64,000 nucleotides of DNA, from NCBI RefSeq assembly GCF_025833875.1, contig NZ_JAOYOD010000001.1, positions 2,728,001 to 2,792,000 of the forward strand, written 5' to 3'. Under the pieces are notes generated by a model. That model did not search any database and had not been told where the DNA came from. It was given only the letters and a program-made list of their open reading frames with translations. Positions 22,438 to 53,418 of the stretch are shown here, piece after piece. Position numbers and translations under genes: made by a program. Position 1 is the stretch's first letter. Each line of letters begins with the position of its first letter. The DNA comes from Reichenbachiella ulvae. GTDB taxonomy: Bacteria; Bacteroidota; Bacteroidia; Cytophagales; Cyclobacteriaceae.

Positions 22438-23589
22438 TCAGCCCTTCTTAAATGGCTTTAAAATCAAATAGGTGATCAAAGTTCCAAGACCTCCTGCGAG
22501 GACAGAAAACAAAACTGAACCAATCACATATTGAACCAATTGCTCGTAGATCGAATCCATATTGAGGTGCTTAAAATCCTCAAACCTGACTGGGTCAGCG
22601 ACAAAGGGGGCTCCACATAGGAAACTAACAAATATGATAATCGGCACCATGGGGGGAATGCTGATATTGGAAAAGAACAGCACGATAATTCGGTTCAACT
22701 TGAAAACACTGGCAATCCCAAATGCCACCAACATCTGAAAACCCCAAACCGGAAAGATGCCAAAAAACAATCCTAACCCCACAGAAAAGGCCATCTTGCC
22801 GGGACTGTCCTTGTGTTTCTTAAACTCTTCTTTGATTTTCTTTCGTGAGTTCTTGACCGAAAAGCGCATGATCATCAGTCTTGGCAAAAAGAAAATCAAA
22901 GCCAAAAAGACCAAAAAGGTATTGAGCACAGAGATTCTAGCAAAATCCCGCACCATTCTAAAATGCGTGATGCGATCCTCTTCATATTTCACACTGACAG
23001 GCACCGGCACAAACTGTACATTGGACCATGCCAGGCGAACAATCACTTCTATCTCAAATTCAAATTTGGAAGTGATCCATTTCTTTTTGCTGATTGGCTC
23101 TAGAGGGTAAGCTCGGTAGCCTGTCTGGGTATCAGGTAAGGAGATCCCTGTTTCCGCCCAAAACCAAAAGTTAGAGAATTTGTTTCCGAAGCTACTCTTG
23201 CTGGGCACATCTGCCTGAGCCATATTTCTAGATCCCATGATCACTGCACCGGGATTCTCGCCAATGGCCTTCAGTAACTTAGGTAGATCATCCGGATCGT
23301 GCTGCCCATCCGAATCTATGGTGATGGCATAGTCATATCCCAGTTCGATCGCTCGATCAAAGCCATTTCTTAACGCCACTCCTTTGCCCTGATTCACCTC
23401 ATGGGTCAAGATTTCGAACTCAGGAAATTCTTTTAATATCTCAGGCGTATCATCCGTAGCGCCATCGTTGATCACGATGACATTATCGGTGTACATACTC
23501 AGCTTTTCGAGCACCGGTCGGATCTTCGGACCATTGTTGTAGGTAGGAACTAAAACGCAATATGTCAGCGTATCTACCTCAGGCTGCAT
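22438..23589 (-). CDS. glycosyltransferase family 2 fused to DUF2062
   Basis: 383 residues: an N-terminal GT-A domain (about 8-225) with VLVPTYNNG, VIVINDGATDD, KGVALRNGFD, the metal-binding DSDGQHDPDD and TGYRAYPLE; then membrane helices and a DUF2062 domain (about 260-383, SVGLGLFFGIFPVWGFQML). The dolichol-phosphate-mannose-synthase-like catalytic part suggests transfer of a sugar to a lipid or to the polyene. It is the last gene of the pigment operon and overlaps the preceding dehydratase by 11 bp. This fusion recurs in aryl-polyene and flexirubin loci of Bacteroidetes. Confidence 0.88.
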   Translation of the reverse strand: MQPEVDTLTYCVLVPTYNNGPKIRPVLEKLSMYTDNVIVINDGATDDTPEILKEFPEFEILTHEVNQGKGVALRNGFDRAIELGYDYAITIDSDGQHDPDDLPKLLKAIGENPGAVIMGSRNMAQADVPSKSSFGNKFSNFWFWAETGISLPDTQTGYRAYPLEPISKKKWITSKFEFEIEVIVRLAWSNVQFVPVPVSVKYEEDRITHFRMVRDFARISVLNTFLVFLALIFFLPRLMIMRFSVKNSRKKIKEEFKKHKDSPGKMAFSVGLGLFFGIFPVWGFQMLVAFGIASVFKLNRIIVLFFSNISIPPMVPIIIFVSFLCGAPFVADPVRFEDFKHLNMDSIYEQLVQYVIGSVLFSVLAGGLGTLITYLILKPFKKG

Positions 23590-23959
23590 CGAAGGTCGCT
23601 TGCTGTTTGAACATGATATCCTCGCCTTCTTTTGCTTTAAGACTTGCCTTCACTTTTAGCCCCTCTTCCGATTCTGCACAGTTGAAACTCAAGACCAGCT
23701 CAGGAGTAGCAGTAGGATCGATCATTCGGAGAAACTTCACATTGGCGGCTTTTTGCAGCTTCACTTTCTTACCAGTAGCTTTTTCTATGGCTCGTCTTAA
23801 AATCTCCATAGTCACCACACCCGGTAAAACCGGCTGCTGAGGAAAGTGTCCTTTGAAAACTTCATGGGCTGAATCGATAGTCAGAGCAATCTCATACTGC
23901 CCTTCCGACTCCACCAACTCTCCAAAGGATATTAGCTTTTCAAAATTTTCTTTATTCAT
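23579..23959 (-). CDS. hotdog-fold 3-hydroxyacyl-ACP dehydratase (FabZ-like)
   Basis: 126-residue single hotdog domain with HEVFKGHFPQQPVLPGVVTMEIL, the FabA/FabZ H-F-P-x-x-P-V-x-P-G-V catalytic motif including the active His and the central helix, though the usual catalytic Asp/Glu in the helix appears as Glu in TMEILRRA. Likely removes water after each ketoreduction during polyene growth, possibly as half of a heterodimer with the second dehydratase (29790-30221), as described for ApeI/ApeP. Coupled to the GT2 gene by an 11-bp overlap. Confidence 0.8.
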   Translation of the reverse strand: MNKENFEKLISFGELVESEGQYEIALTIDSAHEVFKGHFPQQPVLPGVVTMEILRRAIEKATGKKVKLQKAANVKFLRMIDPTATPELVLSFNCAESEEGLKVKASLKAKEGEDIMFKQQATFDAA

Positions 23960-23967
23960 GGCGATAA

Positions 23968-24588
23968 TTATTCGGTAAAAACGGTTGCATCTGTCAGCGT
24001 ATTCAGCTGATGATTCGAAAATTGAATCCGTCGAAAATCCGTTTCTGTCTCAAAGAAAACCAATTCTTTCAAGAGGAGCGACTCTTCATCAAACTTCAGA
24101 CTTACTTTTTCGAACATGCGTTTCATGGTCTTCTTCGTTGGTAGCAGGTCTACCTCCACTACTCCATTAGCAAACCCAATATTCACATCAAAATCTCCAC
24201 TCTGCAAAATCGAACCATCCATGGTAGTAAGCAAGAACCTTTTAAAACCTGCAATCTGCGGGCTATTGAGTGGAATGTTCTTTTTCTTTCCACCTTCCAT
24301 TTTATAGGCTTCATCACTTTTGATCACAAAAGCATAAGCTTCAGGTGACTTTTGATCCCACTTCATCACTCCAGGTTTCATGAAGTAAAATTGACCACTA
24401 GCTTCCATGGTTTCATCTAGAAATGAAAACTCCTGTTCCTGATCAAAATCACTCACTATTGATGTCGTCTTCGCATTGAAAGCTTCCAATCGAGAAAGAA
24501 ACTTCTCTACTCTATCCTGCGCTTCAACCTCTACTGTCAGGCAAATGATTGCCAACCCAAGCATCAAGCTGTATATCCTCTTTTTCAT
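23968..24588 (-). CDS. LolA-like periplasmic lipoprotein/lipid carrier
   Basis: 206 residues from the ATG at 24588 (MKKRIYS), with signal peptide (cleavage after VEA). Mature sequence DFDQEQEFSFLDETMEASGQFYFMKPGVMKWDQKSPEAYAFVIKSDEAYKM has the LolA/LppX beta-sheet pattern (F-x-Q-x-x-x, G-x-F-x-x-x-x-P-x-x-x-R/K-W). In aryl-polyene loci a LolA-like protein is thought to shuttle the lipidic pigment across the periplasm. The longer frame to 24648 would bury the signal peptide behind 20 residues, so it is rejected. Confidence 0.85.
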   Translation of the reverse strand: MKKRIYSLMLGLAIICLTVEVEAQDRVEKFLSRLEAFNAKTTSIVSDFDQEQEFSFLDETMEASGQFYFMKPGVMKWDQKSPEAYAFVIKSDEAYKMEGGKKKNIPLNSPQIAGFKRFLLTTMDGSILQSGDFDVNIGFANGVVEVDLLPTKKTMKRMFEKVSLKFDEESLLLKELVFFETETDFRRIQFSNHQLNTLTDATVFTE

Positions 24589-24598
24589 ATTCGTTCTG

Positions 24599-25342
24599 TT
24601 ATTGAGACAAAACACCAAATTCCATACCTCTTTTTCGAATTCCATCAATCAACTCTGGCAAAGCCTCACAAGTACTCTTGACTCGCTCGTGCATCAGCAC
24701 GATATCCCCGGGTTTCGTTTGAGTAATCACCTTTTGCACCTTCAAAGAATCAAAATCATAAGCTGTATCATAGGTACGTAGCGACCAACCAATCATTTGC
24801 AGCCCGCGCTTCTTGATCACCTGAGCGACATTCGGGTTGGTGACACCAAATGGAGGTCTAAAATAGACTTCCTCCTTTCCACTCAAGTCAGTTAGTAGAT
24901 TTTGTGCCCGCATAATATCTTTATCCAGGGCTGACCCAAACTTAAATCCAAATGCCGGTTCGTGCAGATAGGTGTGCCCACCTACCATATGTCCTTCTGC
25001 GATGATTCTTTTGACTAACTCGGGATGAGCCTCTACATTTTTACCGATCAGGAAAAACATGGCCTTGACTTGTTTCTCTTTTAGGATGTCTAAAGTCAAG
25101 GGAGTGAGCTCTGGGTGCGGCCCATCATCAAAGGTCAACATGACCCGATCACTAGCCACATGATTTTGTGCCTTCACAAAAAAATTGACCCCTGGCATCA
25201 TAGACATGGCGAACAAAAACAGGGAATAAACGAAAATCAAGATGAATGGCGAGGCATAGGAGCTCATTCCTCTGGCCACCATGATCCAAAGTCCTAATTC
25301 AAGAAGTAAAAAAATGATTAAGCTCCAATGAAATTTAGACAC
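24599..25342 (-). CDS. membrane-anchored polysaccharide deacetylase
   Basis: 247 residues with two N-terminal hydrophobic segments (5-23, 29-48) and a NodB-type carbohydrate esterase family 4 domain (about 66-245): TFDDGPHPELT (metal Asp), HTYLH (the H-x-x-x-H metal ligands), RPPFGVTNPNV and IVLMHE. All catalytic residues for Zn-dependent N- or O-deacetylation are visible. The start is a GTG at 25342, overlapping the CLF gene by 8 bp. Its role in a pigment locus is unclear; it may act on the sugar or acyl part of the final lipid. Confidence 0.87.
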   Translation of the reverse strand: MSKFHWSLIIFLLLELGLWIMVARGMSSYASPFILIFVYSLFLFAMSMMPGVNFFVKAQNHVASDRVMLTFDDGPHPELTPLTLDILKEKQVKAMFFLIGKNVEAHPELVKRIIAEGHMVGGHTYLHEPAFGFKFGSALDKDIMRAQNLLTDLSGKEEVYFRPPFGVTNPNVAQVIKKRGLQMIGWSLRTYDTAYDFDSLKVQKVITQTKPGDIVLMHERVKSTCEALPELIDGIRKRGMEFGVLSQ

Positions 25343-26273
25343 GTCTGAGAAGGGTCAGTCCAGTATATTGCGCATTGCTCAAGTTGATCACTACTGAGAA
25401 ATCACCTGCTTTCCCCTCATTCTTCAACTTGTCGTAGGCAAGGTGAAATCCAAATGCCGAACTACTAAAGTATCGGCCTATCCATTGCGTATATAGCTGA
25501 TGATTGATATCCAGATCTGCTTCTTGTACCTCGTTCAAGCCTACAAAATTACCAATACTGTCATCGACACGCAGGTCATGCGCCTGTAGCAAGGCCTCCA
25601 GCTCTACTTCAATCTTCGAAGTAGAAACAATCTTTACATCAGCTACTTCGATTCCTGCATCGGACTCATCCTTCAGCACGAAGAAACTACAACCTTCAGC
25701 CAGTTCGTTTCGCATGTCTTCAGGCCAATCTACCGCTTTAGCCAGCTCGTCTAGCACATCTATTTTTTCGTCTACTCCGCCTAGCATTACTGCCTGATCA
25801 CCTTCTTTGATTCGAAGCATAGCGTCCATCAGTGCATATTCGAAGGACAGTCCCTTCTGCACGTGTGTCATATTGTAGCGCTGGTTCTTCAGTTGCAATG
25901 CAATCTGACCAGAGACTGAGTTGTGGCCCGATTGGATGAAAGACAGTGGAGGAATCAAACTCCCCTCCTCGGCAAGAATTGAGGATTTCAAAAACTTTTC
26001 AGTATCCATCAAACAGCCCAATCCAGAACCTACGATGATCGCTCCCAAATCTTCCACTCCAGCCTGCTGCATGCATGCCTGACTGGAAGCCAAAGACATT
26101 TTCATCATTTTAGAAGCCCTTCTGATCATAGCTGGAGGGATAAAGTCCTTGTAATTGGGTTCTAGAAGTGCCAAATCATTGGCCTTCCCAATTTTCAGCT
26201 CATATAAATTTTCGTTGAGAAAACTTGGCTGACAGGTGATCGATACCGCGGATTGGATGAATACTTTTCTCAT
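25335..26273 (-). CDS. ketosynthase chain-length-factor-like protein (no active Cys)
   Basis: 312 residues, thiolase fold, shorter than a full KS (about 400). The nucleophile elbow reads NMTHVQKGLSFEYALMDAM, so the catalytic Cys position is Gln139, as in chain-length factors of type II polyketide synthases. The C-terminal catalytic His motifs are also absent. It directly follows a complete KS (ATGA overlap), which argues that the two make a KS-CLF heterodimer like ApeO/ApeC in the E. coli aryl-polyene system, setting polyene length. Confidence in the CLF idea is good; the exact alignment is by eye. Confidence 0.78.
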   Translation of the reverse strand: MRKVFIQSAVSITCQPSFLNENLYELKIGKANDLALLEPNYKDFIPPAMIRRASKMMKMSLASSQACMQQAGVEDLGAIIVGSGLGCLMDTEKFLKSSILAEEGSLIPPLSFIQSGHNSVSGQIALQLKNQRYNMTHVQKGLSFEYALMDAMLRIKEGDQAVMLGGVDEKIDVLDELAKAVDWPEDMRNELAEGCSFFVLKDESDAGIEVADVKIVSTSKIEVELEALLQAHDLRVDDSIGNFVGLNEVQEADLDINHQLYTQWIGRYFSSSAFGFHLAYDKLKNEGKAGDFSVVINLSNAQYTGLTLLRRV

Positions 26274-27448
26274 GCTTTTGTAAAGATCAAAGAAGTACTA
26301 TTGCCTCCGAAACCGAAGGAGTTAGACATGACCGCATTAATTTCTTTGTTTTCCCATTCAGTAGTTGGTGTTCGTTCGCTACTGGTCATTTTATCCTTCC
26401 AGTGCAGATTAGGAAACACACAACCATTTTGAATACTCATGATCGAGTAGACTGCTTCTACTCCACCAGCAGCTGCCAATGTATGACCTGTATAAGCCTT
26501 GGTAGAACTAAAGGAAAGATCCAGATCACCAAATACACGATCAATCGCACTCAGTTCCGAATTGTCATTATTTTTCGTGGCAGTGCCATGGGCATTGAGA
26601 TAGTCGATATCTGCAGCTTGCAGACCTGCTAGCTTTAGCGACTCCTGCATCGCCAGATAGGCACCATTCCCCTCTGGGGAAGTGCCGGTCTGATGGTAGG
26701 CATCGTTGGTATTAGCCCAGCCTTTACAGACACCCATTTTTTTATTCCCTGAAGCTGCCAGACTTTTTTCATTTTCCAGCAGTAGAAACCCTGCACCCTC
26801 ACCCAGATTCAGTCCCACCCGGTTTTCATCAAATGGTCTGCAATACTCCGTATCATAGATCATGAGTGACCCAAATCCATCGACGGTAAAATCTGTCAAT
26901 GCATCTGTACCTCCAACCACGACTCGATCCAGCATACCTGCCTTGATCATTCTAGCGCCAAGCATGATAGCATTGGCTGCCGAAGAACAGGCCGTGCTCA
27001 AGGTATTCACGTAATGAGTGATACCCAGCAGCTGCGCCACCATATCAGTGACTGTCCCCAGATCATGAGTTAATAAGTTTCGTATTTGAGTGGGATCCTG
27101 ACGCATGTAGAGGGATTGAAAATGTCTTTCACTCAAATCCATGCCTCCGGTCGTGGTTCCATTGATGAAGCCAGTTCGCAAATCTTGGTCTAGGTCCGTT
27201 TCGGCTATGGCCTCCTTGCAGGCTAGCATCGCGATCAAGCCAGTACGTGGCACCTGCGCCTCTGCATCTAATCCAAGCAAAGTCTTCAGCTCCTCGTCAG
27301 ACTTGAGTAGTCCTCCTTTCAGCTTAGGCCCTTTGTTTGTTTTGAAAAGAGTCACACCTGTTTTGGCTGCCTTTAGGGCACGTAGATTTTCTTCTACGCC
27401 TATCCCAAGGGCAGTCACCACTCCCATACCGGTCACGAATGCTTCCAT
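26270..27448 (-). CDS. beta-ketoacyl-ACP synthase (condensing KS of the KS-CLF pair)
   Basis: 392 residues, FabF-like. The catalytic triad is intact: Cys154 in TLSTACSSAANA, His in NAHGTATKNND and His in TKAYTGHTLAAAGGVE; the GFGGNST motif closes the fold. It should catalyse decarboxylative condensation of malonyl-ACP with the growing aryl-polyenyl-ACP. Start ATG at 27448 overlaps the stop of the ACP gene by one base, and the stop overlaps the CLF start by four, so ACP-KS-CLF are translationally coupled. Confidence 0.92.
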   Translation of the reverse strand: MEAFVTGMGVVTALGIGVEENLRALKAAKTGVTLFKTNKGPKLKGGLLKSDEELKTLLGLDAEAQVPRTGLIAMLACKEAIAETDLDQDLRTGFINGTTTGGMDLSERHFQSLYMRQDPTQIRNLLTHDLGTVTDMVAQLLGITHYVNTLSTACSSAANAIMLGARMIKAGMLDRVVVGGTDALTDFTVDGFGSLMIYDTEYCRPFDENRVGLNLGEGAGFLLLENEKSLAASGNKKMGVCKGWANTNDAYHQTGTSPEGNGAYLAMQESLKLAGLQAADIDYLNAHGTATKNNDNSELSAIDRVFGDLDLSFSSTKAYTGHTLAAAGGVEAVYSIMSIQNGCVFPNLHWKDKMTSSERTPTTEWENKEINAVMSNSFGFGGNSTSLIFTKA

Positions 27449-27699
27449 CAATTCTTATTTGCCTCGATGTATTTGGCTAGTGTTTCTATTGAATAAAAAA
27501 TATCTCTTGCCTCTTCTGGATTGCCTACTTTCAATCCATAGTTGTTGTCCAGAATCACGATGATCTCTAGCGCGTCGATAGAGTCAAGTCCCAAACCATC
27601 ACCAAACAATGGCTCATCATCTTTGATGTCCGCCGGGGTTACCTCTTCCAGGTTTAGCTGTTCGATCAGCTTTTCTTTTAATTCTTGTTTTAACTCCAT
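27448..27699 (-). CDS. acyl carrier protein
   Basis: 83-residue ACP with the phosphopantetheine Ser in LGLDSIDALEIIV, preceded by the acidic helix I/loop (EEVTPADIKDDEPLFGDG). It carries acyl intermediates for the adjacent KS-CLF. The AcpS-type transferase at 49202 is the obvious activating enzyme. It differs in sequence from the second ACP in this operon (31084-31332), so starter and extender carriers may be specialised. Stop overlaps the KS start by one base. Confidence 0.92.
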   Translation of the reverse strand: MELKQELKEKLIEQLNLEEVTPADIKDDEPLFGDGLGLDSIDALEIIVILDNNYGLKVGNPEEARDIFYSIETLAKYIEANKN

Positions 27700-27710: not shown

Positions 27711-28268
27711 TTACTCCTTTGCTACGAAATATAGCTCTAACTCAAACGCTTCTTCCAAGACTTCCACCCAGCCTCCCAGCACGGCTTCAGCCTTATTTTG
27801 TGCCACTAGCACTTGATTGGTTTTCATCCAGCGATCCTGATCAAACTGATCCGCCAGAGTGAATAAATTTTCTCCATACCACTTGTTGCGAATCGCTATT
27901 TCACCCAACACAATATTAGGCAAAGTGTAGACAAAATTCGCTGGGCTGGCAGCCTTTCCCTCATTGATATTTTGCTGATGAACCCAGTCCGTATCCAAAC
28001 TGGCCGATGCATTCTGAAAGTGAAGGGCGATCGCATCATCTTGATAGGATTCAAGATCGTGCTCCTGTTTCAGAAGCTCCACCCCTATTACTCCTAACTT
28101 AGATAAATTATCCATTTTATGGAACTTGGGATAGCTCATATTTAATGAATGATAGAATGCCGACATCAATCCTTTGAGCGTACCATCATTCTCAGGCAAT
28201 GGCTGTGACTTGCCATTGATTTCGAAGAGGTCCTTCTTTATTACTATAGAACTAATTGCTTTCAACAT
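27711..28268 (-). CDS. reduced ketosynthase-like protein of the pigment operon (185 aa)
   Basis: 185 residues with no signal peptide. Its middle (SPANFVYTLPNIVLGEIAIRNKWYGENLF) resembles the S-P-x-x-F-x-x-x-x-x-N-x-x-x-G segment of the small KS-like N-terminal domain family (Ketoacyl-synt_2) found in aryl-polyene loci, but the protein is far too short for a full thiolase fold and has no catalytic Cys. It lies between a KS and an ACP with overlaps or gaps under 15 bp on both sides. It may be a structural subunit of the condensing complex; this is inference. Confidence 0.5.
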   Translation of the reverse strand: MLKAISSIVIKKDLFEINGKSQPLPENDGTLKGLMSAFYHSLNMSYPKFHKMDNLSKLGVIGVELLKQEHDLESYQDDAIALHFQNASASLDTDWVHQQNINEGKAASPANFVYTLPNIVLGEIAIRNKWYGENLFTLADQFDQDRWMKTNQVLVAQNKAEAVLGGWVEVLEEAFELELYFVAKE

Positions 28269-29365
28269 TCAACCTTTCTTATCACAGCAGCAGCATTACA
28301 TCCCCCAAATCCCGAAGTGGTCTTTAGTATGGTATTTAGCTGCATTGCTTTATTTTCTGTTAAGACATTGATTTTTTCTGTAGTACCTGGGCTTTCACAC
28401 CCCTTGGTAGCCAACATCTCGTTGTTATCCATGGATTGCATGCACATCACAAGCTCTAGCAGACCTGCTGCTCCGAGTGTATGCCCAAAATAGCCTTTCA
28501 TGCTGTTGACAGGCTGCTTGGTTAGCCCCATTCGATGAAAAGCAATGGACTCCATGTCATCATTGTAGCGAGTAGCCGTACCATGGGCCGAGATCGCATC
28601 GATCTGTCCCACTTGCAGAGCCGACTGCTTTAGTGCCTTGGTTATGGATCTATAAAGCCCTTCTCCAGTACGGGAGGGTCCTGAGATGTGGTTGGCATCA
28701 TTGGCACTCGCTCCACCTAATACTTCTTTGGGGCAAGCCATAAAATCTTTTTTATCTCCTGTCACCACTGCCGTAGCAATCGCTTCACCCAGAGACAGCC
28801 CATTTCTATTGGCATCAAATGGCTTACATTCCCTGTCACTCAATGCCATAAAGGACTCGAATCCTCTACAAGTAAATTCAGAGAACACATCCGCCCCAAT
28901 GACCATTACCTTGTCATAATTGTTGGTCGCTATATAATCATGGGCCATAACTACCCCAAGCAAGCCAGATATACAAGCATTGGACACCACCTCGATATCC
29001 ATCTGAATATCCAGTTTGGACGCCACGACTTCAGCTACAAACTGGGGTCTTACCTCCTTGCTTAATCCGGCTGCTAATCGATCGACATCACCTTTCGTAG
29101 TACAAAATATCATCAACCACTTCCCTTCCAAATCATTCATTCTGGATAAGGAGTATTGACAACTCTGAAGGACCAGAGACTCTAATTTGGTAAGGCCTTT
29201 TTCAAGATTATAATCTTCTATTATACCAAAAGGAATGTTAGAAGGGGCATGATCGTAGTGTTCATGCTTTTTCAAACCGGAGATGCCCTGCTGTGCCTTT
29301 GCAAAATTGACATGGGCACCTACTCCCAGCGGAGAGATGATATGTTCGGCTCCTATATAACTCAT
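28262..29365 (-). CDS. beta-ketoacyl-ACP synthase (second KS)
   Basis: 367 residues from the ATG at 29365, which overlaps the thioesterase stop (ATGA). Active Cys131 in VVSNACISGLLG, His in SAHGTATRYNDD, and His in KGYFGHTLGAAGLLE are present, with GFGGCNAA near the end. It is shorter than FabF and its N-terminal third is diverged, but the full Cys-His-His set suggests activity, perhaps in a first condensation or a specialised elongation. A TTG-like start further upstream would overlap the thioesterase by 34 bp and is less likely. Confidence 0.87.
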   Translation of the reverse strand: MSYIGAEHIISPLGVGAHVNFAKAQQGISGLKKHEHYDHAPSNIPFGIIEDYNLEKGLTKLESLVLQSCQYSLSRMNDLEGKWLMIFCTTKGDVDRLAAGLSKEVRPQFVAEVVASKLDIQMDIEVVSNACISGLLGVVMAHDYIATNNYDKVMVIGADVFSEFTCRGFESFMALSDRECKPFDANRNGLSLGEAIATAVVTGDKKDFMACPKEVLGGASANDANHISGPSRTGEGLYRSITKALKQSALQVGQIDAISAHGTATRYNDDMESIAFHRMGLTKQPVNSMKGYFGHTLGAAGLLELVMCMQSMDNNEMLATKGCESPGTTEKINVLTENKAMQLNTILKTTSGFGGCNAAAVIRKVEC

Positions 29366-29790
29366 CCTTCTTTCCAATCTGCTTGATTCATCCATTCGGT
29401 ATAAAACTCCGGATAGGATAATTCCAACTCTCTAGATTTGGCATGGAGAAACACCTGCTCAGTTTTCCCAATACAGCTTACCTGTCCGTTTTCCAGATTG
29501 ATTACTTCATATTCATGGATCAGTTTGGCGGATCTTGATTTGATCAATCTGCATCTAATCTCCAAGTTCTCACCAAATGTAAGTGGCGACTTGTAGTTGA
29601 TGTCTGCATGTACAATCGGAACAAAATACCCATTGTTTGCTATATCCATATAGGACATCCCGATGCTCTCACCTAGTTTTTCTCTGCCATCTTCAAAATA
29701 CTTCAAATAGTTGCCGTGCCAAACGACACCCATGGCATCCACTTCAGAAAATCTCGCTCTTACAGATATGCTTACTTCCAGATACTCCAT
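29362..29790 (-). CDS. acyl-CoA/ACP thioesterase (4-hydroxybenzoyl-CoA thioesterase-like)
   Basis: 142-residue hotdog protein from the ATG at 29790. VRARFSEVDAMGVVWHGNYLKYFEDGREKLGE is the hallmark of the YbgC/4HBT branch, with the catalytic Asp in the EVDAMG turn. In aryl-polyene loci this position is taken by ApeK-type thioesterases, thought to edit or release acyl-ACPs. The start overlaps the dehydratase stop by one base and its stop overlaps the KS start. Confidence 0.87.
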   Translation of the reverse strand: MEYLEVSISVRARFSEVDAMGVVWHGNYLKYFEDGREKLGESIGMSYMDIANNGYFVPIVHADINYKSPLTFGENLEIRCRLIKSRSAKLIHEYEVINLENGQVSCIGKTEQVFLHAKSRELELSYPEFYTEWMNQADWKEG

Positions 29791-30221
29791 TAGTCTTCTT
29801 GCTGAATGAGGATTTTCATCTCGCAAGAAATCAAATCCTGATTTCCTACTTTGCTACTACCTGAGATAATAGTTACATTCATCACATCATTCTTTATGGT
29901 TACGGTGGTTTCTATTTGTGCGCCGATTGGTGGCAGGTCAGTTACTTCTACTTTGCTCACACCCCCGATGAACCCAACAGGCACAGGGATATTCCTTAAA
30001 TGACACTCATATCCGACCTTGGCAGCAGCCGTTTGGGCAATATTTTCGATCAGTCCTGATTCAGTCAATTTCCCATCCAGCACAAACATATTATTCTCGC
30101 TCACCTCCAGACGAGAAACAATTTCTTTTTCTCCACAGCTGATCACCTCGTCTATCATGACGATCGGAGCTTTTTGTGGTATATAGTCGGTAATATTTTC
30201 TCGGTCGATTAGTGCTTTCAT
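29790..30221 (-). CDS. ApeI/ApeP-like beta-hydroxyacyl-ACP dehydratase
   Basis: 143 residues with IPQKAPIVMIDEVISCGEKEIVSRLEV and GLIENIAQTAAAKVGYE, then PVGFIGGVSKVEV. This is the hotdog dehydratase pattern of aryl-polyene systems (YiiM-like position of the catalytic helix, E-x-x-A-Q). The usual first-half catalytic His is replaced in a segment reading ENNMFVLDGKLTESG, so it may need the second dehydratase (23579-23959) as partner. It overlaps the acyltransferase stop by four bases. Confidence 0.8.
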   Translation of the reverse strand: MKALIDRENITDYIPQKAPIVMIDEVISCGEKEIVSRLEVSENNMFVLDGKLTESGLIENIAQTAAAKVGYECHLRNIPVPVGFIGGVSKVEVTDLPPIGAQIETTVTIKNDVMNVTIISGSSKVGNQDLISCEMKILIQQED

Positions 30222-31084: not shown

Positions 31085-31332
31085 TAGGCATGCTCGTGCT
31101 TATTGACGATGAAATCGTAAAAGTCATTGAGTGTAGAAATAGACTTAAAGTCCTCTCCAGTCACTTTAAAACCAAAATGACTTTCGATTACCACCACCAA
31201 ATCCACATAGTCCAGACTGTCCAAATCCAGCGTTTCATGAAGCACACCGTTAGGATCGAGAGATTCCACCTCCACTTCAAATTCCTCCGCCAAAAATCCG
31301 TTCACCGTTTCAACTACTTCTTCTCTAGTCAT
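31084..31332 (-). CDS. acyl carrier protein
   Basis: 82 residues from the ATG at 31332 (MTREEVVETVNGFLAEEF). The phosphopantetheine Ser is in ETLDLDSLDYVDLVV; the acidic helix II is typical for KS and acyltransferase docking. A longer frame to 31374 lies inside the KS gene and is rejected. It overlaps the KS end by 8 bp and the acyltransferase start by one base, so KS-ACP-acyltransferase are translated together. Confidence 0.92.
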   Translation of the reverse strand: MTREEVVETVNGFLAEEFEVEVESLDPNGVLHETLDLDSLDYVDLVVVIESHFGFKVTGEDFKSISTLNDFYDFIVNKHEHA

Positions 31333-39577: not shown

Positions 39578-39582
39578 GAAAA

Positions 39583-41304: not shown

Positions 41305-41305
41305 T

Positions 41306-44073: not shown

Positions 44074-44075
44074 TC

Positions 44076-44447: not shown

Positions 44448-44684
44448 CTTTCTATGTGTTCATGCGTTTAATAATCTCCATAAAGGAGTGAGGGTATCTA
44501 ATCAGCCTGGAGCTGACAATCACATTTTACTATCCTGCTGAAGGGAAAAAATGTACGTAGCTAAAAATTCCAAAGTAGGGATTTACCTTTAGAGGAATTT
44601 AGCGAAAATTTTTGTCTTGAGCAATTTATTACACATGTATAAATGATATAATCATATGACAATAATCATAGCATCTGATGAAAC

Positions 44685-44726
44685 AAAAAAAGCCTTGACA
44701 AACACACGTCTGTCAAGGCTTTTTTA
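44685..44726. terminator. strong bidirectional terminator
   Basis: A perfect 10-bp stem (44691-44700 with 44711-44720), 10-nt loop, A-run on the left and T-run on the right, so it can stop transcripts in both directions. It lies 18 bp past the end of the oxidoreductase gene (45980 to 44745). Confidence 0.92.
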
Positions 44727-44744
44727 CTGATTTTTCTTTACCCT

Positions 44745-45980: not shown

Positions 45981-46281
45981 AGATTTGTTGAATTATTATT
46001 TTGAGACCAAATGGCTGATTCGTGACTCTCCTTATTTTGGTTCACATTCTTGTAAACCGTCCCTATAGGATCAATTAGTCTCTTAATTGAATTCAAAAAT
46101 AATAAGATTTGAAATAACGCTCCTCGCTCTAATAGTACTTTTAATGCAACATAAAAACAAAACATCAAATCCATGCACATTAGAATCTGATTAAAATTCT
46201 CTTTAATAAATAAATTTTAGCGCTTTCCTTATTTACTTGTGCTTTCATTTTCTATTAATAGGATTTATCAATCAAAAAAGC
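45981..46281. promoter_or_regulatory. AT-rich divergent promoter gap between oxidoreductase and methyltransferase genes
   Basis: A 301-bp AT-rich region between divergent starts. It must hold promoters for both genes; I see no repeat, palindrome or credible small gene. An open frame at 45977-46180 has no protein-like features. Confidence 0.5.
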
Positions 46282-47340
46282 ATGAACAAACAGAAACTCT
46301 CAGCCATTGACGCAAAATTTGAAGCACAAAAAATCGCTTTTGCGCCATTGACCTTTCAGGCGATTAGAGCCATGAAAAATTTGGGAGTGATGGAAAACAT
46401 CCGCAGCAGCCAAGGCCAGGCCACCAAGGAGTCGATCATGGCCGATCTGGATCTGGATGACTATACGGTCGAAATACTACTCGACACAGCAGAAGTCATG
46501 AATGTAATAGAGGTCGAGGACGGACGAATACAGCTCAGCAAAATTGGATACTTCCTATTAAGAGACGAGCTCACACGAGTCAATATGAATTTCTCCCATG
46601 ATGTATGCTACAATGGTTCTGCATTTTTGGAAGATTCTCTAAAACAGGGGAAGCCCTCAGGTCTGAAAGTATTTGGCAGCTGGCCTACCGTCTACGAAGC
46701 GCTGGCCCATCTAGAAGACGATGTGAGAAAATCCTGGTTGGAGTTCGATCATTTCTACTCTCAGGATGCTTTTGACTCTGCTTTGAAAATAGTTTTTGAA
46801 AAGAAGCCGAAAACACTATTTGACATTGGTGGCAATACGGGAAAATGGTCGTTCAAATGCTGTGATTACGATGAAAACGTAAAGATTAAAATCCTGGATC
46901 TACCAGGACAGATCGAAATGGCCAAAGCGAATGTGCTAAAAAAAGGATTGGAGCACAGGATTGAATTTCATCCAATGAACATTCTCGATCCAGAACATGC
47001 CATTCCAAAAGGTGCAGATATCATATGGATGAGTCAGTTTCTGGATTGCTTTTCCAAAGAGCAAATCATTGATATACTATCTAAATGCAAAGAGGCTGCT
47101 GATGCTGACACTTCTATATTTATCATGGAGCCTTTCATTGACAATCAACCCTATGAAGCCGCTAGCTATTCACTCGCTGCTACCTCACTTTATTTCAGCT
47201 GCATCGCCAATGGCAACAGCAAGATGTACAAGCTACCTCAGTTTGAAAGCATGATCGACCAGGCTGGTTTAAAAATCATCAACACGCATCTTCTGATGGA
47301 AGACAATTTCCACACCATTATAGAGTGTAAAAAGGCATAG
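46282..47340 (+). CDS. O-methyltransferase (Methyltransf_2 type)
   Basis: 352 residues from the ATG at 46282 (MNKQKLSAIDAKFEAQK). An N-terminal winged-helix dimerisation part (about 20-85, APLTFQAIRAMKNLGVMENI; VEILLDTAEVMNVIEVEDG) precedes a SAM-binding domain with TLFDIGGNTGKWS (about 195-207), ILDLPGQIEMAK and MSQFLDCFSKEQ. The family methylates phenolic hydroxyls, including polyketide and hydroxyneurosporene-type substrates, so it is a good candidate for methylating the polyene ring. The longer frame to 46237 is rejected (a hydrophobic leader unlike the family). Confidence 0.85.
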   Translation: MNKQKLSAIDAKFEAQKIAFAPLTFQAIRAMKNLGVMENIRSSQGQATKESIMADLDLDDYTVEILLDTAEVMNVIEVEDGRIQLSKIGYFLLRDELTRVNMNFSHDVCYNGSAFLEDSLKQGKPSGLKVFGSWPTVYEALAHLEDDVRKSWLEFDHFYSQDAFDSALKIVFEKKPKTLFDIGGNTGKWSFKCCDYDENVKIKILDLPGQIEMAKANVLKKGLEHRIEFHPMNILDPEHAIPKGADIIWMSQFLDCFSKEQIIDILSKCKEAADADTSIFIMEPFIDNQPYEAASYSLAATSLYFSCIANGNSKMYKLPQFESMIDQAGLKIINTHLLMEDNFHTIIECKKA

Positions 47341-47552
47341 CAGCTGCGTGTACAGCAGGTTTAGTCTGTAACCATCATGTGTCGGAAAGCTACCCTTTCT
47401 TAGCTTGCCTTCACACAAAGCCTTGTGAGCAGCTAGACATATCTGACTTTTAGATTAATTTCGAGCCACGGGTTGGATTCGTCCATGTAAACCCTCACCG
47501 CATGAAGTCATACCGAAGACTTCAGGTATAGAACCGAGTCTCATTGTCTAAT

Positions 47553-49205
47553 ATGAAAAAACGCTACATCACCCTCATCATTCTCGCTTCTTTGTTACTG
47601 ATAGGAGCCGTCTATTTTGTGATGAGAGTGGTCTACCCTGCCCCAGAGACAGGTGAAAGCGAAATCACAGCTGACCAGATGGTGGTAGTAGCAGAAAACC
47701 ATTACCAGCTGGGCAATAGCTGGATTCGTCAAAACGAAAACGGCAATTGGGAAAGCTACATAGAAGGCAATGCCTACGATCGTGGCAGAACCATGGGCAT
47801 TCTACACAAGCAGCTGATCCAAAATCAAGAACAAATCTTCGTGGATGAAATCAACACCAATGTACCCTCCTGGTTCTTGAGAAAAGTACTCTTATTAGGT
47901 ATCGCCTGGTTCAATAGAGACCTGGATGAGTACATACCGCTAGAATATCGACAAGAAATATACGGTGTATCGGAGTTCTTTTCGGACGAGTATGATTTCA
48001 TCGGCCCCAAATTCAACCGCATCGTCAACTATCACGCAGCACATGATATCGGGCATGCCGTTCAAAATATGCATTTAGTTGGCTGCACCTCTGTTGGAAT
48101 CTGGAACTTCAGTGACAGCACCCAGCTCATGATGTCGGGTCGCAATTTCGATTTCTATTTCGGGGATGACTTTGCCAAGGACAAAATCGTTTTGCTTTGT
48201 AATCCTGACCAGGGCTATCAGTATCTATCAGTCACCTGGGGAGGCTTCTGCGGAGTGGTATCTGGTATGAACGAAAAAGGGCTCAGCATTACCCTCAACT
48301 CTGCCAAATCTGAGATCCCAAGCCAGTCAGGGACTCCCGTTTCGATTATCGCCAGAGACATCTTGCAGTATGCTTCCAATATAGCCGAGGCAAAAGCCAT
48401 TGCAGAAAAGTATGACAGCTTTGTGTCCGAACTCTTTACGATCTCCTCTCTGGAGGATGAAAAAATGATGGTGATAGAAAAGTCCCCAGAGCGTACAGGC
48501 TACTATTACCCAAAGGATGACACACTGGTAGTGGCCAACCACTATCAAAGTCCGGAAATGAAAGACCTACCGATCAATCTAGACCATTTGGCCACTTCTG
48601 AATCGGAAGACCGCTTTCTGAGAACTGAGCAGCTTTGCACCCGAATCGACTCTACCTCGCCTGACAACATTGCCAAAATACTGAGAAACCAAAAGGGCAT
48701 CGATGGCAAAGACCTGGGGATAGGAAATCCAAAAGCCATCAACCAACTGCTGGCTCATCATGCGGTGATTTTCGACAATGTAGAAAAGCGCGTTTGGGTA
48801 TCGAACTACCCCTTTCAGGAAAATGTATTTGATGCCTATGATCTGGATGATTTCGATCTATGGAAAGGAAACGCCTTGGGCGTTAGCATAGATTCTTTGC
48901 AGTTGGCGCCTGACAGCTTCTACCAAAGTACGGATTTTCAGACTTTCGAAAAATTCAAATCCCTGAAAGCTGAATTGATCTCTGCGACACAAGAAGAAAA
49001 ACCACTCAGCGAGGAGCAGCTAGCAGCGTTCGAAAACAGTAACCCCATGTACTACGAAACCCACCGTCTGCTAGGCAACTACCATGCAGCTCTTGGCAAC
49101 AAAGAAAAAGCCATTGCACAATACCAAAAGGCACTGCAGTTGGATATCGCCTACATGGAGGACAAGGTTTTTATCGAAGAGCAAATCAAAAGCCTTCAGC
49201 AATGA
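47553..49205 (+). CDS. C45-type Ntn-hydrolase (acyltransferase/autopeptidase) with C-terminal TPR
   Basis: About 550 residues: an N-terminal membrane anchor (residues 5-26), then a peptidase C45/acyl-CoA:6-aminopenicillanate-acyltransferase-like domain with nucleophile Cys178 in HLVGCTSVGIWN (numbered from ATG 47553), GRNFDFYFG, SVTWGGFCGVVSGMNEKGLSIT, and TPR-like helices at the end (THRLLGNYHAALGNKEKAIAQYQKALQLD). Ntn hydrolases of this group cleave themselves before Cys and use it as nucleophile. Inside this locus it may transfer or cleave the acyl chain. An in-frame TTG lies 9 bp upstream. The stop overlaps the acpS start by 4 bp. Confidence 0.82.
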   Translation: MKKRYITLIILASLLLIGAVYFVMRVVYPAPETGESEITADQMVVVAENHYQLGNSWIRQNENGNWESYIEGNAYDRGRTMGILHKQLIQNQEQIFVDEINTNVPSWFLRKVLLLGIAWFNRDLDEYIPLEYRQEIYGVSEFFSDEYDFIGPKFNRIVNYHAAHDIGHAVQNMHLVGCTSVGIWNFSDSTQLMMSGRNFDFYFGDDFAKDKIVLLCNPDQGYQYLSVTWGGFCGVVSGMNEKGLSITLNSAKSEIPSQSGTPVSIIARDILQYASNIAEAKAIAEKYDSFVSELFTISSLEDEKMMVIEKSPERTGYYYPKDDTLVVANHYQSPEMKDLPINLDHLATSESEDRFLRTEQLCTRIDSTSPDNIAKILRNQKGIDGKDLGIGNPKAINQLLAHHAVIFDNVEKRVWVSNYPFQENVFDAYDLDDFDLWKGNALGVSIDSLQLAPDSFYQSTDFQTFEKFKSLKAELISATQEEKPLSEEQLAAFENSNPMYYETHRLLGNYHAALGNKEKAIAQYQKALQLDIAYMEDKVFIEEQIKSLQQ

Positions 49206-49573
49206 TTCATGGCATAGGTACGGATATCGCAGAAACGGCTCGTTTCAAGAAGAAACTGAAGAATCAAAAATTCCTTGATTTGGTCTTCAGTCCTGAAGAA
49301 CAACAATACTGCATGTCTCAAGGACATCCCGAACAGCATCTGGCCGCACGATTTGCAGCCAAGGAATCCTATATGAAGGCCCTGGGTACGGGTTGGGCAC
49401 AGGGAGCCGATTTTAAGGAAATCGAAGTGGCCCACAATGAAGAGGGAGCTCCTATCATCCAACTACATGGAGCAACCCAATCATATTTTGATAAATCAGA
49501 ACTGAAAGACATATTTGTATCCATAAGCCATACCGCCGAATATGCGGTCGCTTATGTGACCATAACCAAGTAG
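49202..49573 (+). CDS. acpS: holo-ACP synthase (4'-phosphopantetheinyl transferase, AcpS type)
   Basis: Attaches phosphopantetheine to the two ACPs of the cluster. 123 residues with the AcpS metal site Asp8 (GIGTDIAETARF) and FAAKES (Glu55), followed by a typical ISHTAEYAVAYV end. AcpS enzymes are about 120-125 aa trimers, so the length is canonical. It may be the genome's housekeeping copy or dedicated to the cluster; its position between the C45 and ligase genes with overlaps suggests dedicated use. Confidence 0.9.
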   Translation: MIHGIGTDIAETARFKKKLKNQKFLDLVFSPEEQQYCMSQGHPEQHLAARFAAKESYMKALGTGWAQGADFKEIEVAHNEEGAPIIQLHGATQSYFDKSELKDIFVSISHTAEYAVAYVTITK

Positions 49574-49579: not shown

Positions 49580-50875
49580 GTGGAGATAGAACAGGACTAT
49601 TCGAGTTTAGAAAACATCAAAAAACTGCAGAACGAGCAGTTTCTTTCCCATTTGACATACATCCGGGAAAACTCAAAATACTATCAAAAGAAGTTCGCAA
49701 AATCAGGATTGGATTGGCAGAACATCAAGAGCCTGGAGGACATCCATCTGCTCCCTGTCACTACCAAAGAAGAGGTGGAAATGTACAATCTGGAATTCCA
49801 GACAGTGAGCAATCAGGACATCATCGAGTATGTTACTACCTCCGGGACATTGGGTGATCCTATCAGCATAGGCCTCACCAGAGAGGACCAGAAAAGACTG
49901 GAATGGAATGAGCGTAGATCCCTGGAGATGTGCGGTATCACTGCCCATGATGTAATACAGATCACCACTACACTAGACAAACGGTTCATGGCTGGAATGG
50001 CCTACTACCTGGGAGCCACGGCTCTGGGTGCTGCAGTGATTCGATCAGGCATAGGAGATCCGGACTTTCAGCTGGACAACATAAAAAGATTCAAACCCAC
50101 CGTGCTCGTGGCAGTCCCTTCTTTTGCCTACAAGTTTGGCAACTATCTGCTGGGCAAGGGCATAGACCCCAAAACCACTTCAATCAAAAAAATTGTATGC
50201 ATCGGGGAGCCGATCAAGGACGAGGAATTCGAACCGAATACGCTGAATGAAAAACTAAGTGAGATCTGGGATGTAGAGTTGTACTCTACCTATGCCAGTA
50301 CAGAGATGGCCACCGCTTTTACCGAATGTAAGGAAGGAAAAGGAGGGCACCTGTTGCCAGAGCTGATTCACATAGAGATACTGGACGAAAACAATCAACC
50401 TGTACCCCATGGACAGGTGGGTGAAGTGACGGTGACTCCTTTTGGGATCAAGGGCATGCCACTGCTCAGATTCAAAACAGGTGACCTGGCCCGAGTACAT
50501 TCGGACGCTTGTAGCTGCGGTCGCAATACCCTCCGACTGGGGCCGATCGAAGGACGAAAAGGTCAGATGATCAAATGGAAAGGCACAACGCTTTTTCCCC
50601 AGCAGATCGAAAACGTATTGAACCATATCTCTGAGATTGACAACTATATCATCGAACTATCTCTGGATGACTTGGGGCTGGACAAACTCAAAGTGATCCT
50701 ACCTGACCATCTGGATCAGGGGATCATAGATCGTGCCCAGAGACTACTCCAGCAACGATTAAGAGTCAATCCAATACTGGAACAAAATACGGCTGCTTAT
50801 ATTTCCAGCGAGATACTCCCGAAAGGCAGTAGAAAACCCCGCAGATTCGTGGACAAAAGAGAGGCAATTAAGTGA
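49580..50875 (+). CDS. AMP-dependent aryl-acid ligase (phenylacetate-CoA-ligase-like)
   Basis: 431 residues, adenylate-forming. The P-loop TTSGTLGDPI spans about 86-95; YSTYASTEMAT (about 235) and KTGDLARVH (about 303) are the A5 and A7 motifs; the C-terminal KGSRKPRRFVD carries the A10-type Lys region. PaaK-like size. It should activate an aryl acrylic acid such as coumarate and load it on CoA or ACP. The start is a GTG at 49580, 6 bp after acpS, and the stop overlaps the next GTG (GTGA). Confidence 0.88.
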   Translation: MEIEQDYSSLENIKKLQNEQFLSHLTYIRENSKYYQKKFAKSGLDWQNIKSLEDIHLLPVTTKEEVEMYNLEFQTVSNQDIIEYVTTSGTLGDPISIGLTREDQKRLEWNERRSLEMCGITAHDVIQITTTLDKRFMAGMAYYLGATALGAAVIRSGIGDPDFQLDNIKRFKPTVLVAVPSFAYKFGNYLLGKGIDPKTTSIKKIVCIGEPIKDEEFEPNTLNEKLSEIWDVELYSTYASTEMATAFTECKEGKGGHLLPELIHIEILDENNQPVPHGQVGEVTVTPFGIKGMPLLRFKTGDLARVHSDACSCGRNTLRLGPIEGRKGQMIKWKGTTLFPQQIENVLNHISEIDNYIIELSLDDLGLDKLKVILPDHLDQGIIDRAQRLLQQRLRVNPILEQNTAAYISSEILPKGSRKPRRFVDKREAIK

Positions 50876-52398
50876 AAAAGATAGACGACAAATACGAGGT
50901 AGTAATCATAGGATCAGGCATGGGCGGATTGGCCTGTGGACTGATGCTGGCCATGGAAGGCAAATCCGTTTGTATCCTGGAGAAAAACGCTCAGATCGGC
51001 GGTACTTTGCAGACCTTCAAGCGTGATGGGGGCAAATTCGATACCGGCGTGCACTATGTTGGTGGTCTGGAGGAAGGACAGCCTCTTTATCCCTACTTCA
51101 AGTATCTGGACATCTTCAAGGATGTCGACATCATGAAGCTGGACGAAAACGGCTATGACATCATCACCTTCGCTGGAGACGACAACCAGTATCCGCATGC
51201 GCAAGGCTATGATAATTTCAAAAACCAATTGCTCCAATTCTTCCCCGACGAAGAGGCCAACCTGGATCGATATATTCACGACATCAAGGAGCTTTGTAAG
51301 AAATTTGCCCTCTACAACATCTACGACCTGCCCGAAAAGAGCAATGAGCTAGAGTACATGTACACCGGGGCTAGCGAAAAAATCAACAGCTATACCTCCA
51401 ATGAAAAGCTTCAAAAAGTACTGGCAGGCTCTAACCTCCTCTATGCAGGAGAGGAAAACAAAACGCCATTTTATGTACATGCACTGATCATCAACTCATA
51501 TATGATGAGTGCCTACAAATTCCACAAGGGCGGGAGTCAGATCAGCCGCTCGCTCAACTATTCGATCAAAGACCGAGGTGGCAACATCGTAAGAAATGCA
51601 GAGGTCACCTCTATCAATCACAATGAAAGAACTGTAGAGAGTGTGACCCTGGCAGATGGACGTACCATCAAAGGGGACATTTTCATCTCCAACGTACACC
51701 CATCAGAAACCATCAAACTGATGGATCAGTCCCTGATGCGAAAATCCTATACTTCCAGAATCGCGAGCCTGGAAAACACTGTATCCGTTTTCACCCTGTA
51801 TCTGGTATTGAAGCCTGAAACAGTGAAATATGTCAACTCAAACTTTTACAACTTCAGTCAGGAGAAGGTCTGGGGTCTGACCGATTACAAACTCGACGAC
51901 TGGGGCAAAGACATCGCGATCTTCTATTTGCCAGACGAGAAAAAACCAGAATATGCCGGCGTGATCACGGTGATGGCTTACATGAAAATGGATGAAGTTC
52001 AGCCCTGGATCGAAACCTACAACACCACGCTTCAGGTGAGTGATCGATCGGAGAGTTACCAGGATTTCAAAGAACGAAAGGCTCAAATCTTACTCAAAAG
52101 ATTAGAGAACTATATGCCTGGTATCAACAAGCATATCAAGAGCTACCATACCTCTACCCCACTGACCCAGCGGGACTATCTGAATACGACGGATGGTTCG
52201 CTCTATGGGATCTCTCGCGATCACAACTTCCCGCTGAAGTCACAGATCAACACCCGCACGAAAATGAAAAACATGTTTTTCACCGGGCAGAACATCATCC
52301 TCCACGGCGTACTGGGCGCTACGATCAGTTCTGTGGTCACTTGTACCGAAATTTTGGGGAGAGATTATTTACTCAAAAAAATCAAATCTGTTTTGTAA
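50872..52398 (+). CDS. CrtI-type FAD-dependent desaturase/isomerase
   Basis: 508 residues. VVIIGSGMGGLACGLMLAMEGKSVCILEKNAQIGGTLQTF gives the FAD fold shared by phytoene desaturases and carotenoid isomerases; the middle HKGGSQISRSLNYSIKDRGGNIVRNAEVTSI is the substrate-pocket strand; GQNIILHGVLGATISS closes the FAD site. The family could desaturate or isomerise the polyene chain or oxidise the ring. No carotenoid genes are in the window, so a carotenoid role is less likely. GTG start overlaps the ligase stop. Confidence 0.87.
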   Translation: MKKIDDKYEVVIIGSGMGGLACGLMLAMEGKSVCILEKNAQIGGTLQTFKRDGGKFDTGVHYVGGLEEGQPLYPYFKYLDIFKDVDIMKLDENGYDIITFAGDDNQYPHAQGYDNFKNQLLQFFPDEEANLDRYIHDIKELCKKFALYNIYDLPEKSNELEYMYTGASEKINSYTSNEKLQKVLAGSNLLYAGEENKTPFYVHALIINSYMMSAYKFHKGGSQISRSLNYSIKDRGGNIVRNAEVTSINHNERTVESVTLADGRTIKGDIFISNVHPSETIKLMDQSLMRKSYTSRIASLENTVSVFTLYLVLKPETVKYVNSNFYNFSQEKVWGLTDYKLDDWGKDIAIFYLPDEKKPEYAGVITVMAYMKMDEVQPWIETYNTTLQVSDRSESYQDFKERKAQILLKRLENYMPGINKHIKSYHTSTPLTQRDYLNTTDGSLYGISRDHNFPLKSQINTRTKMKNMFFTGQNIILHGVLGATISSVVTCTEILGRDYLLKKIKSVL

Positions 52399-52407
52399 GT
52401 TGCATTC

Positions 52408-53418
52408 ATGACGGGGAGGAGATTTTTTAAGCTAAAAAAGAAGAAGCGCAAAGAACCAGGCACACTGATTCTAGGTGTACATGGTTTAGGCAACAAGCCT
52501 CCGCACCCTATGATCAAGCTTTGGTGGAAAAAATCCATCATCGAGGGTCTGAAGAAAGTAGAGGGATCCAAAAAGCATTTTCATTTTGAGATGGTGTACT
52601 GGGCAGACATCATGTATCCCTATCCGCTGAACCCGCGGATCAAGGACCCGGATCATGAGCTGCATATCGAGGAGCCCTATATCCCCGAGCCGATCCCCAC
52701 TCCCAAAATCCGATACACACCCTGGCATCTGGCTAAAATCACTTTTGATAAGATCAAGGAAATAGCCTTCCTCAGCAAAAATGGTCTGGCCAACTATCGC
52801 TTGCCTTTCAATTTTGTCGTCAAAAAATCCTTTAGAGACCTGGCGGCATATTATGACGAAGAGCAAAGCAAGGCGGAATTTTTGGATCAATTGCCGGTCA
52901 AAAAACTGATTCGCAATCGACTCAGAAGATTCCTATACAAGCACCGCAACAAACGAATACTGATCGTAGCACACTCCATGGGATCCATCATCACCTACGA
53001 TGTATTATGGCTCCTACAAAACATCTACGAAATAGACACTTTCATCTCGATGGGCTCACCACTTGGGCTCCCCTTGATCAGAGAGAATATCGCGAGGGAT
53101 CACAAATTCAAATATGAAGAAGGAGACTTACTGCCTACACCAGAAAACATCAAGCACTGGTTCAACCTCTCGGACAAGGAAGATCACTTTGCGGTATTCG
53201 ACGAGCTGGCACAATTCTTCGCCTCCAACTCCAACCATGTCGCCCCTACCGATATGCTGGTAGACAATGACTACAAAAACTGGGTGACTGCCAATGCCCA
53301 CAAGTCCTTTGGCTACCTGCGCACCCCCGAGATGGGCAAAATCATATCGGACTTCCTCAACAAGAAACCCGAAACCATCTGGGAAAAAGCCAGGAAGCTA
53401 TTGAAGAGGAAGAAGTAG
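52408..53418 (+). CDS. alpha/beta-hydrolase-like protein
   Basis: 336 residues, cytoplasmic by sequence, with ILGVHGLGNKPP (oxyanion-hole region), ILIVAHSMGSIITYDVLWLL (nucleophile elbow A-x-S-x-G around Ser190), and a candidate catalytic His late in the chain (HKSFGYL). The insert YPYPLNPRIKDPDHELHIEEPYIPEPIPTP is Pro-rich and unusual. Probably an esterase or lipase. It begins 9 bp after the desaturase gene, so it is the last gene of this operon, perhaps hydrolysing a pigment ester or a lipid donor. Confidence 0.75.
   Translation: MTGRRFFKLKKKKRKEPGTLILGVHGLGNKPPHPMIKLWWKKSIIEGLKKVEGSKKHFHFEMVYWADIMYPYPLNPRIKDPDHELHIEEPYIPEPIPTPKIRYTPWHLAKITFDKIKEIAFLSKNGLANYRLPFNFVVKKSFRDLAAYYDEEQSKAEFLDQLPVKKLIRNRLRRFLYKHRNKRILIVAHSMGSIITYDVLWLLQNIYEIDTFISMGSPLGLPLIRENIARDHKFKYEEGDLLPTPENIKHWFNLSDKEDHFAVFDELAQFFASNSNHVAPTDMLVDNDYKNWVTANAHKSFGYLRTPEMGKIISDFLNKKPETIWEKARKLLKRKK

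Follow-up and report, generated by a model that had tools for sequence, protein, structure and literature searches.

A 31-kb locus of the Reichenbachiella ulvae chromosome, at positions 22438–53418 of the window, carries genes for an aryl polyene pigment, and raises the questions of what that pigment is and which of the genes belong to its pathway. The window is the whole stretch of 64,000 nucleotides that was analysed, corresponding to bases 2,728,001–2,792,000 of a 5,495,834-base contig in a genome of 5.56 Mb and 12 contigs. The genome of R. ulvae ABR2-5T has been described as 12 contigs and 5.5 Mb, with an antiSMASH arylpolyene cluster, most similar to that for flexirubin, at 2,734,426–2,780,398, and the strain as orange and positive in the flexirubin alkali colour test (PMC10752948). 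The published endpoint at 2,780,398 is position 52398 of the window, the last base of the CrtI-like gene described below, and from this tight match of cluster coordinates we infer that the pigment test of ABR2-5T can be carried over to the window. Two of the checks proposed in the initial annotation, antiSMASH and a KOH-type colour shift, are therefore already in print for the matching strain, the published call covering the locus and the colour test being positive (PMC10752948). In the published work on flexirubin or aryl polyenes of Reichenbachiella that we consulted we found no gene-level account of the locus.

The locus very probably encodes the polyene half of a flexirubin pathway

Sixteen ORFs on the minus strand, with start codons assigned mechanically from the ORF list, run from 34804 down to 22438 with overlaps of at most 50 bases and gaps of at most 11, in agreement with the 16-gene operon of the initial annotation. 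Pfam families were found for 14 of the 16; the scan gave none for the ORFs at 27711–28268 and 29790–30221. In the order of the operon the genes are:

33275–34804, minus: FlxA, tyrosine ammonia-lyase (TAL; NF053541; MIO motif ASG at residue 135; SH motif of the HAL kind)
32544–33278, minus: ketoreductase, FlxB by order (PF00106; Y-x3-K)
31325–32539, minus: ketosynthase KSa, FlxC by order (Pfam; Cys-His-His in alignment)
31084–31374, minus: acyl carrier protein 1 (PF00550; DSL)
30218–31084, minus: lipid A-type acyltransferase (PF03279)
29790–30221, minus: FabZ-like dehydratase, weak match (NF000582, 30.4 bits, E 3e-7, cut-off 113)
29362–29826, minus: hot-dog thioesterase (PF13279)
28262–29395, minus: ketosynthase KSb, FlxI by order (Pfam; Cys-His-His in alignment)
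27711–28268, minus: half ketosynthase/chain-length-factor-like protein of 185 aa without the cysteine, FlxL by order
27448–27699, minus: acyl carrier protein 2 (PF00550)
26270–27451, minus: ketosynthase KSc, FlxN by order (Pfam; Cys-His-His in alignment)
25335–26273, minus: short degenerate ketosynthase, CLF-like, without catalytic Cys, FlxO by order (PF13723; alignment)
24599–25342, minus: polysaccharide deacetylase-like protein (PF01522)
23968–24648, minus: LolA-like carrier (PF03548)
23579–23959, minus: FabA/ApeI-like dehydratase (PF07977 above cut-off; PF22818 under cut-off)
22438–23589, minus: GT2 + DUF2062 glycosyltransferase (PF00535, PF09835)

A search for solved-structure relatives of the short ketosynthase (25335–26273) gave 0 matches. 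To the left of the operon's end lie YchJ and topoisomerase genes (Pfam). Divergent from the operon is a fusion gene, in which Pfam recognises the MMPL, acyltransferase and methyltransferase domains:

34964–38773, plus: trifunctional MMPL transporter/acyltransferase/methyltransferase (Pfam)

The fusion has 2133 relatives at an E value of 0.001, with like domains in the 120 matches listed. For the third block, Pfam likewise returned every family that had been named for it, from the halogenase-like FAD protein and the C45/AAT protein to the AMP ligase and the hydrolase:

44076–44447, minus: putative ORF of 123 aa (no Pfam family)
44745–45980, minus: flavin-dependent halogenase-like protein (PF04820; 3nix, 384 bits)
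46237–47340, plus: O-methyltransferase-type methyltransferase (PF00891, PF21212)
47544–49205, plus: C45 autoproteolytic acyltransferase/hydrolase, FlxW by order (NF040521, 191.9 against a cut-off of 85)
49202–49573, plus: AcpS-type phosphopantetheinyl transferase, FlxX by order (PF01648)
49580–50875, plus: FlxY, 4-coumarate-CoA ligase (NF053551)
50872–52398, plus: CrtI/CrtISO-like FAD oxidoreductase, FlxV by order (TIGR02733, 113.8 bits, and TIGR02730, 97.3 bits, both under cut-off)
52408–53418, plus: alpha/beta hydrolase, LCAT/PGAP1-like (PF02450, 22.6 against a cut-off of 21)

FlxA exceeds the cut-off of its profile (NF053541, 763.6 bits against 700), as does FlxY (NF053551, 556.9 against 520), and the type II KS, KR, DH and ACP genes for polyene synthesis stand in an order conserved in Bacteroidota loci, in congeners and in family members. 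Together with the antiSMASH call and the positive pigment test in print, these scores and the synteny uphold the assignment to a flexirubin-type pigment. We consider it very likely that the flexirubin pathway is encoded at two loci, with the polyene (flx) half in the window and the dialkylresorcinol (dar) half elsewhere in the chromosome.

Some features of the region vary or stand apart. The 123-aa ORF, passed over in the initial annotation, adjoins the methyltransferase or the FAD gene in Reichenbachiella agariperforans and in the congener G459, irrespective of the ABC operon discussed below; by eye, the interval between this ORF and the FAD gene (44448–44744) holds a hairpin with matching arms and with A and T runs outside, resembling a bidirectional terminator. 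The FAD and methyltransferase genes are arranged in different orders among Reichenbachiella (R. ulvae, L015 and L016), and no methyltransferase of the 46237–47340 type was found in the flx stretch of R. faecimaris that was examined. A promoter scan of 18001–58000 with a Bacteroidota consensus returned 1 site against 3.3 expected.

The third block is ordinary flx content

Window proteins were compared by tblastn (E 1e-4, more than 40% of the query) with 80 named loci found to carry the fusion, the best 80 of 408. Two of these loci (L062 and L065) seem to come from one species, and since the loci span at most 10 kb on each side of the fusion, some less, the counts for the third block are lower bounds. 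In these best 80 of 408, KSa and KSc were each present in 64 loci, the 185-aa protein in 61, TAL in 37 and LolA in 15; the CrtI-like gene was present in at least 73, the FAD protein in at least 64, C45 in at least 42, FlxY in at least 37, the methyltransferase in at least 34 and AcpS in at least 30. In the 64 loci longer than 23 kb, the gene recognised first after the fusion was CrtI-like in 60, FAD in 2, TetR in 1 and none in 1, and in R. faecimaris the FAD gene follows the fusion directly. This wide occurrence indicates that, except for the hydrolase, the third block is ordinary flx content. An AAT-type acyltransferase and a ligase were already among the aryl polyene genes described from Flavobacteriia (PMC5932025).

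The notion of an unusually complete tailoring set is not supported by the comparison with the 80 named loci (best of 408): Algoriphagus, Dyadobacter, Crocinitomix, Chitinophaga and Ohtaekwangia have largely the same genes, and the DAR half is absent from the locus. The flx cluster of R. ulvae is an ordinary, already reported flexirubin cluster, routine in itself. As for the LCAT-like hydrolase (52408–53418), a 79% identical counterpart adjoins the CrtI gene in G459, and none was found in the best 80 of 408 named loci with their flanks of at most 10 kb on each side; we are unsure of its place in the pathway.

DarH, rather than C45, follows the dialkylresorcinol genes

The annotated ORFs of the 31-kb locus include no dialkylresorcinol genes, an absence that the initial annotation does not mention, and none are required there, as flx and dar are also split in Chitinophaga pinensis. 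In the same genome, 2.7 Mb from flx, we found DarA at 5,454,041 and DarH at 5,456,520, with DarB between them; DarH scores 461.5 bits against a cut-off of 300, and darA and darB are named by homology. The dar locus occupies 5.4517–5.462 Mb (L013:15692–18944 and L014:1–6075) and holds a halogenase-like FAD gene, DarA, DarB, a 133-aa protein, DarH, an ABC-2 ATPase and permease and two KS-like genes, in an order that is the same in G459. Gene identities, gene order, conservation and the split between two loci are here direct observations. The dar genes at 5.454–5.457 Mb fit the antiSMASH resorcinol cluster published for ABR2-5T, which ends at 5,481,028 and has a printed start, 5,934,952, that exceeds this end (PMC10752948). 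A ketosynthase in a 2415-codon open frame at 5,365,149 of the same genome fits the published type I PKS cluster at 5,338,720–5,385,913 (PMC10752948).

The distribution of these genes was followed in a set of 70 genomes (15 fusion-positive genomes of the family set, 46 fusion-positive rows, with G239, G091, G249 and lower rows omitted, and another 9 from among the 80 named loci), reduced to 69 distinct fusion-bearing genomes because G493 repeats G465; most of those with DarA were searched for the fusion, DarA, DarH, C45 and ABC alone, and an absence in a draft genome may reflect gaps. DarA was present in 55 of the 69. DarH (above 400 bits, a weak match of 154.7 bits in G455 being left out) accompanied it in 54 of the 55, the exception being G155, and occurred in 0 of the 14 genomes without DarA. 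C45 was found in 68 of the 69, that is, in 54 of 55 with DarA and in 14 of 14 without, with G024 the sole genome lacking a match. TAL and KS genes flank the fusion in 13 of the 14 genomes without DarA, the contig of the remaining one (G415) being too short to judge.

FlxW has been proposed to link the polyene to the resorcinol (PMC3992019). If FlxW is C45, its retention where dar is absent speaks against that role, and because DarH tracks DarA while C45 does not, the distribution suggests that DarH is the better candidate for forming the resorcinol ester. The C45 protein has an N-terminal hydrophobic segment and a C-terminal TPR region; a hydrophobic N-terminus is shared by 51 of 51 homologues, a GC[TS][ST] pattern occurs in 36 of the 51, and Cys181 is invariant in 13 aligned sequences. 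With an N-terminus so conserved, the protein is probably membrane-anchored and acts outside the cytoplasm. Its solved-structure relatives were TPR designs only and gave no role. Earlier work gave the name darE to a BtrH-like gene and noted that polyene clusters occur both with dar and without it (PMC3949708); modestly new is the co-distribution of DarA, DarH and C45 in 69 fusion-bearing genomes, which allows the ester-forming step to be assigned in a testable way.

Neither R. faecimaris nor Algoriphagus aquimarinus gave a match to DarA or DarH, and R. faecimaris has been described as beige and negative for flexirubin (PMC10752948, citing older literature). That a species with flx and without dar is negative suggests that the flx set alone may not predict a positive flexirubin test. 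On a further reading, which we hold to be less likely than not, flx may be a free-standing pathway in which C45, outside the cytoplasm, attaches the aryl polyene to an acceptor other than a dialkylresorcinol, with dar and DarH as a flexirubin-making add-on and ABC-HlyD-TolC sets near flx as optional exporters. If so, the 14 of 69 genomes without dar, including R. faecimaris, would be expected to produce an aryl polyene lipid, as yet uncharacterised, to which the alkali test is blind.

The ABC operon is probably a lineage-specific insertion

The initial annotation had also tentatively drawn an exporter operon into the pathway. Its composition agrees with Pfam, which finds TetR, ABC, HlyD and OEP/TolC genes in a plus-strand run 3′ of the fusion (38867–44073):

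38867–39577, plus: TetR
39583–41304, plus: ABC exporter
41306–42667, plus: HlyD
42664–44073, plus: TolC

Its place in the core pathway did not survive comparison. Each of the four genes was found in 1 of the best 80 of 408 named loci, that of R. agariperforans (L015), where the operon sits at the same place as in R. ulvae. G459 has an flx locus in the same order without the operon and carries the four genes at 4.45 Mb, 1.3 Mb from its fusion at 3.15 Mb. All four are present, with ABC 65–78% identical, in three genomes (G421, G451 and G439) that gave no match to the fusion at E 1e-60; in the family set ABC was matched in 82 of 98 genomes and the fusion in 15 of 98; and 43 of the 69 fusion-bearing genomes gave no ABC match at E 1e-60. 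We conclude that the operon probably moved in as an insertion within the R. ulvae/R. agariperforans lineage. G+C content differs little between the ABC operon (0.417), the fusion (0.412), block 1 (0.431) and block 3 (0.447) and gives no foreign signature.

The operon might instead be a working accessory part that in some lineages exports either the pigment itself or an intermediate, as could be read from its identical site in the two Reichenbachiella. In 4 of the 40 genomes with both genes (from searches at an ABC threshold of 1e-60 and at a stricter one of 1e-155), ABC and the fusion lie less than 20 kb apart: G000 and G487, which are one lineage, G348, with the full operon 7.4 kb past the flx block, and G536, where ABC, HlyD and TolC genes lie together 10.5 kb from the fusion. 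Without the two Reichenbachiella this gives 2 observed against 0.31 expected within 20 kb (P of 2 or more, 0.04), but the 20-kb limit was picked post hoc, all 40 genomes were taken as complete, and P is 0.13 at 40 kb. In addition, G131 has a full operon about 21 kb from DarA and G466 one about 31 kb from C45, and these four distant genomes make an accessory role possible. Against it, besides the rarity of the operon in the named loci, its absence from so many fusion-bearing genomes and its presence without the fusion, ABC and the fusion share a contig but are separated by more than 300 kb in 7 of the other 36 genomes, while 29 have them on different contigs (placement in G491 aside), where the distance is not readable; the set in G536 has no TetR match nearby and its ABC lies in a 757-codon frame. 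We regard an accessory role as unlikely and the insertion as the better reading.

The product is very probably a flexirubin and possibly chlorinated

The locus itself has no dar genes, the 185-aa protein (27711–28268) has an ApeC-like fold according to alignment-based structure prediction, and DarA is missing from 14 of the 69 fusion-bearing genomes, all of which could fit a non-flexirubin aryl polyene of the ApeA-R type without dialkylresorcinol. Yet the genome has its own DarA, DarB and DarH, the strain was positive in the published pigment test (PMC10752948), and ApeA-R systems start from 4-HBA and have no ammonia-lyase, whereas here the starter enzyme is TAL, encoded by the first gene of the operon. 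Such a product is highly improbable, which leaves the flexirubin assignment in place.

Chlorination of that flexirubin is a separate matter, raised by the description of the gene at 44745–45980 as halogenase-like. Lys69 of its product, which we take to be the putative active-site lysine of flavin-dependent halogenases, is conserved in 75 of 75 aligned sequences, and CmlS and ChlB4 are among its solved relatives; a second halogenase-like gene lies at the dar locus, and chlorinated flexirubins are known from the literature. On the other hand, the protein scores 176.5 bits against a CmlS cut-off of 900, and the gene also occurs in loci of Chitinophaga species (C. pinensis being outside the set compared), while the published flexirubin of C. 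pinensis is C43H54O4, with no chlorine. The name holds as far as the conserved lysine goes; that the protein is a true halogenase and the pigment chlorinated is possible but doubtful.

Proposed pathway

Tyrosine would be converted to 4-coumarate by FlxA and activated by FlxY, as published for the C. pinensis enzymes. According to a KEGG analysis (PMC10752948, section 3.5) none of six Reichenbachiella strains makes tyrosine, although this is the starting compound of flexirubin. The AcpS-type enzyme would prime the acyl carrier proteins that receive the activated 4-coumarate, and the aryl polyene would be extended by three intact ketosynthases with one or two CLF-like partners, the ketoreductase and two dehydratases. 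Methyltransferases may methylate the ring, and transport to the outer membrane may fall to the MMPL fusion and the LolA-like protein. The dialkylresorcinol would come from the dar locus, 2.7 Mb away, and the ester be formed probably by DarH, with C45, probably membrane-anchored, most likely catalysing an acyl transfer or a hydrolysis that flx pathways share. TetR-ABC-HlyD-TolC would be an independent exporter inserted in the R. ulvae/R. agariperforans lineage. We infer this order of steps, as we do the roles of C45, the CrtI-like and halogenase-like proteins, GT2 and DarH.

Comparison with known systems

Among the closest relatives of the locus are those of R. agariperforans and G459, with the operon order of R. 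ulvae and, in R. agariperforans, the ABC operon in place. C. pinensis DSM 2588 resembles R. ulvae in its TAL, 4-coumarate-CoA ligase, five KS-like proteins, KR, dehydratases, deacetylase, LolA, GT and exporter and in a separate dar locus; its account also names a phospholipid/glycerol acyltransferase (PMC3992019). Chitinophaga loci related to that of C. pinensis have a block order unlike that of R. ulvae, and R. ulvae, unlike C. pinensis, has the ABC operon and the LCAT-like hydrolase. Flavobacterium johnsoniae shares the ammonia-lyase, ligase, AAT/C45, GT2, LolA, ACPs, synthases, thioesterase and dar genes, all in one 37-kb cluster that includes dar (PMC3992019, PMC5932025), whereas in R. ulvae flx and dar are split. 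The ApeA-R system of Escherichia coli is like R. ulvae in its type II KS/CLF, two ACPs, KR, two dehydratases, RND exporter, LolA-like protein and acyl- and glycosyltransferases, and differs in its 4-HBA starter, supplied via ApeH, and in a gene table that lists neither an ammonia-lyase nor a dialkylresorcinol gene (PMC8253772).
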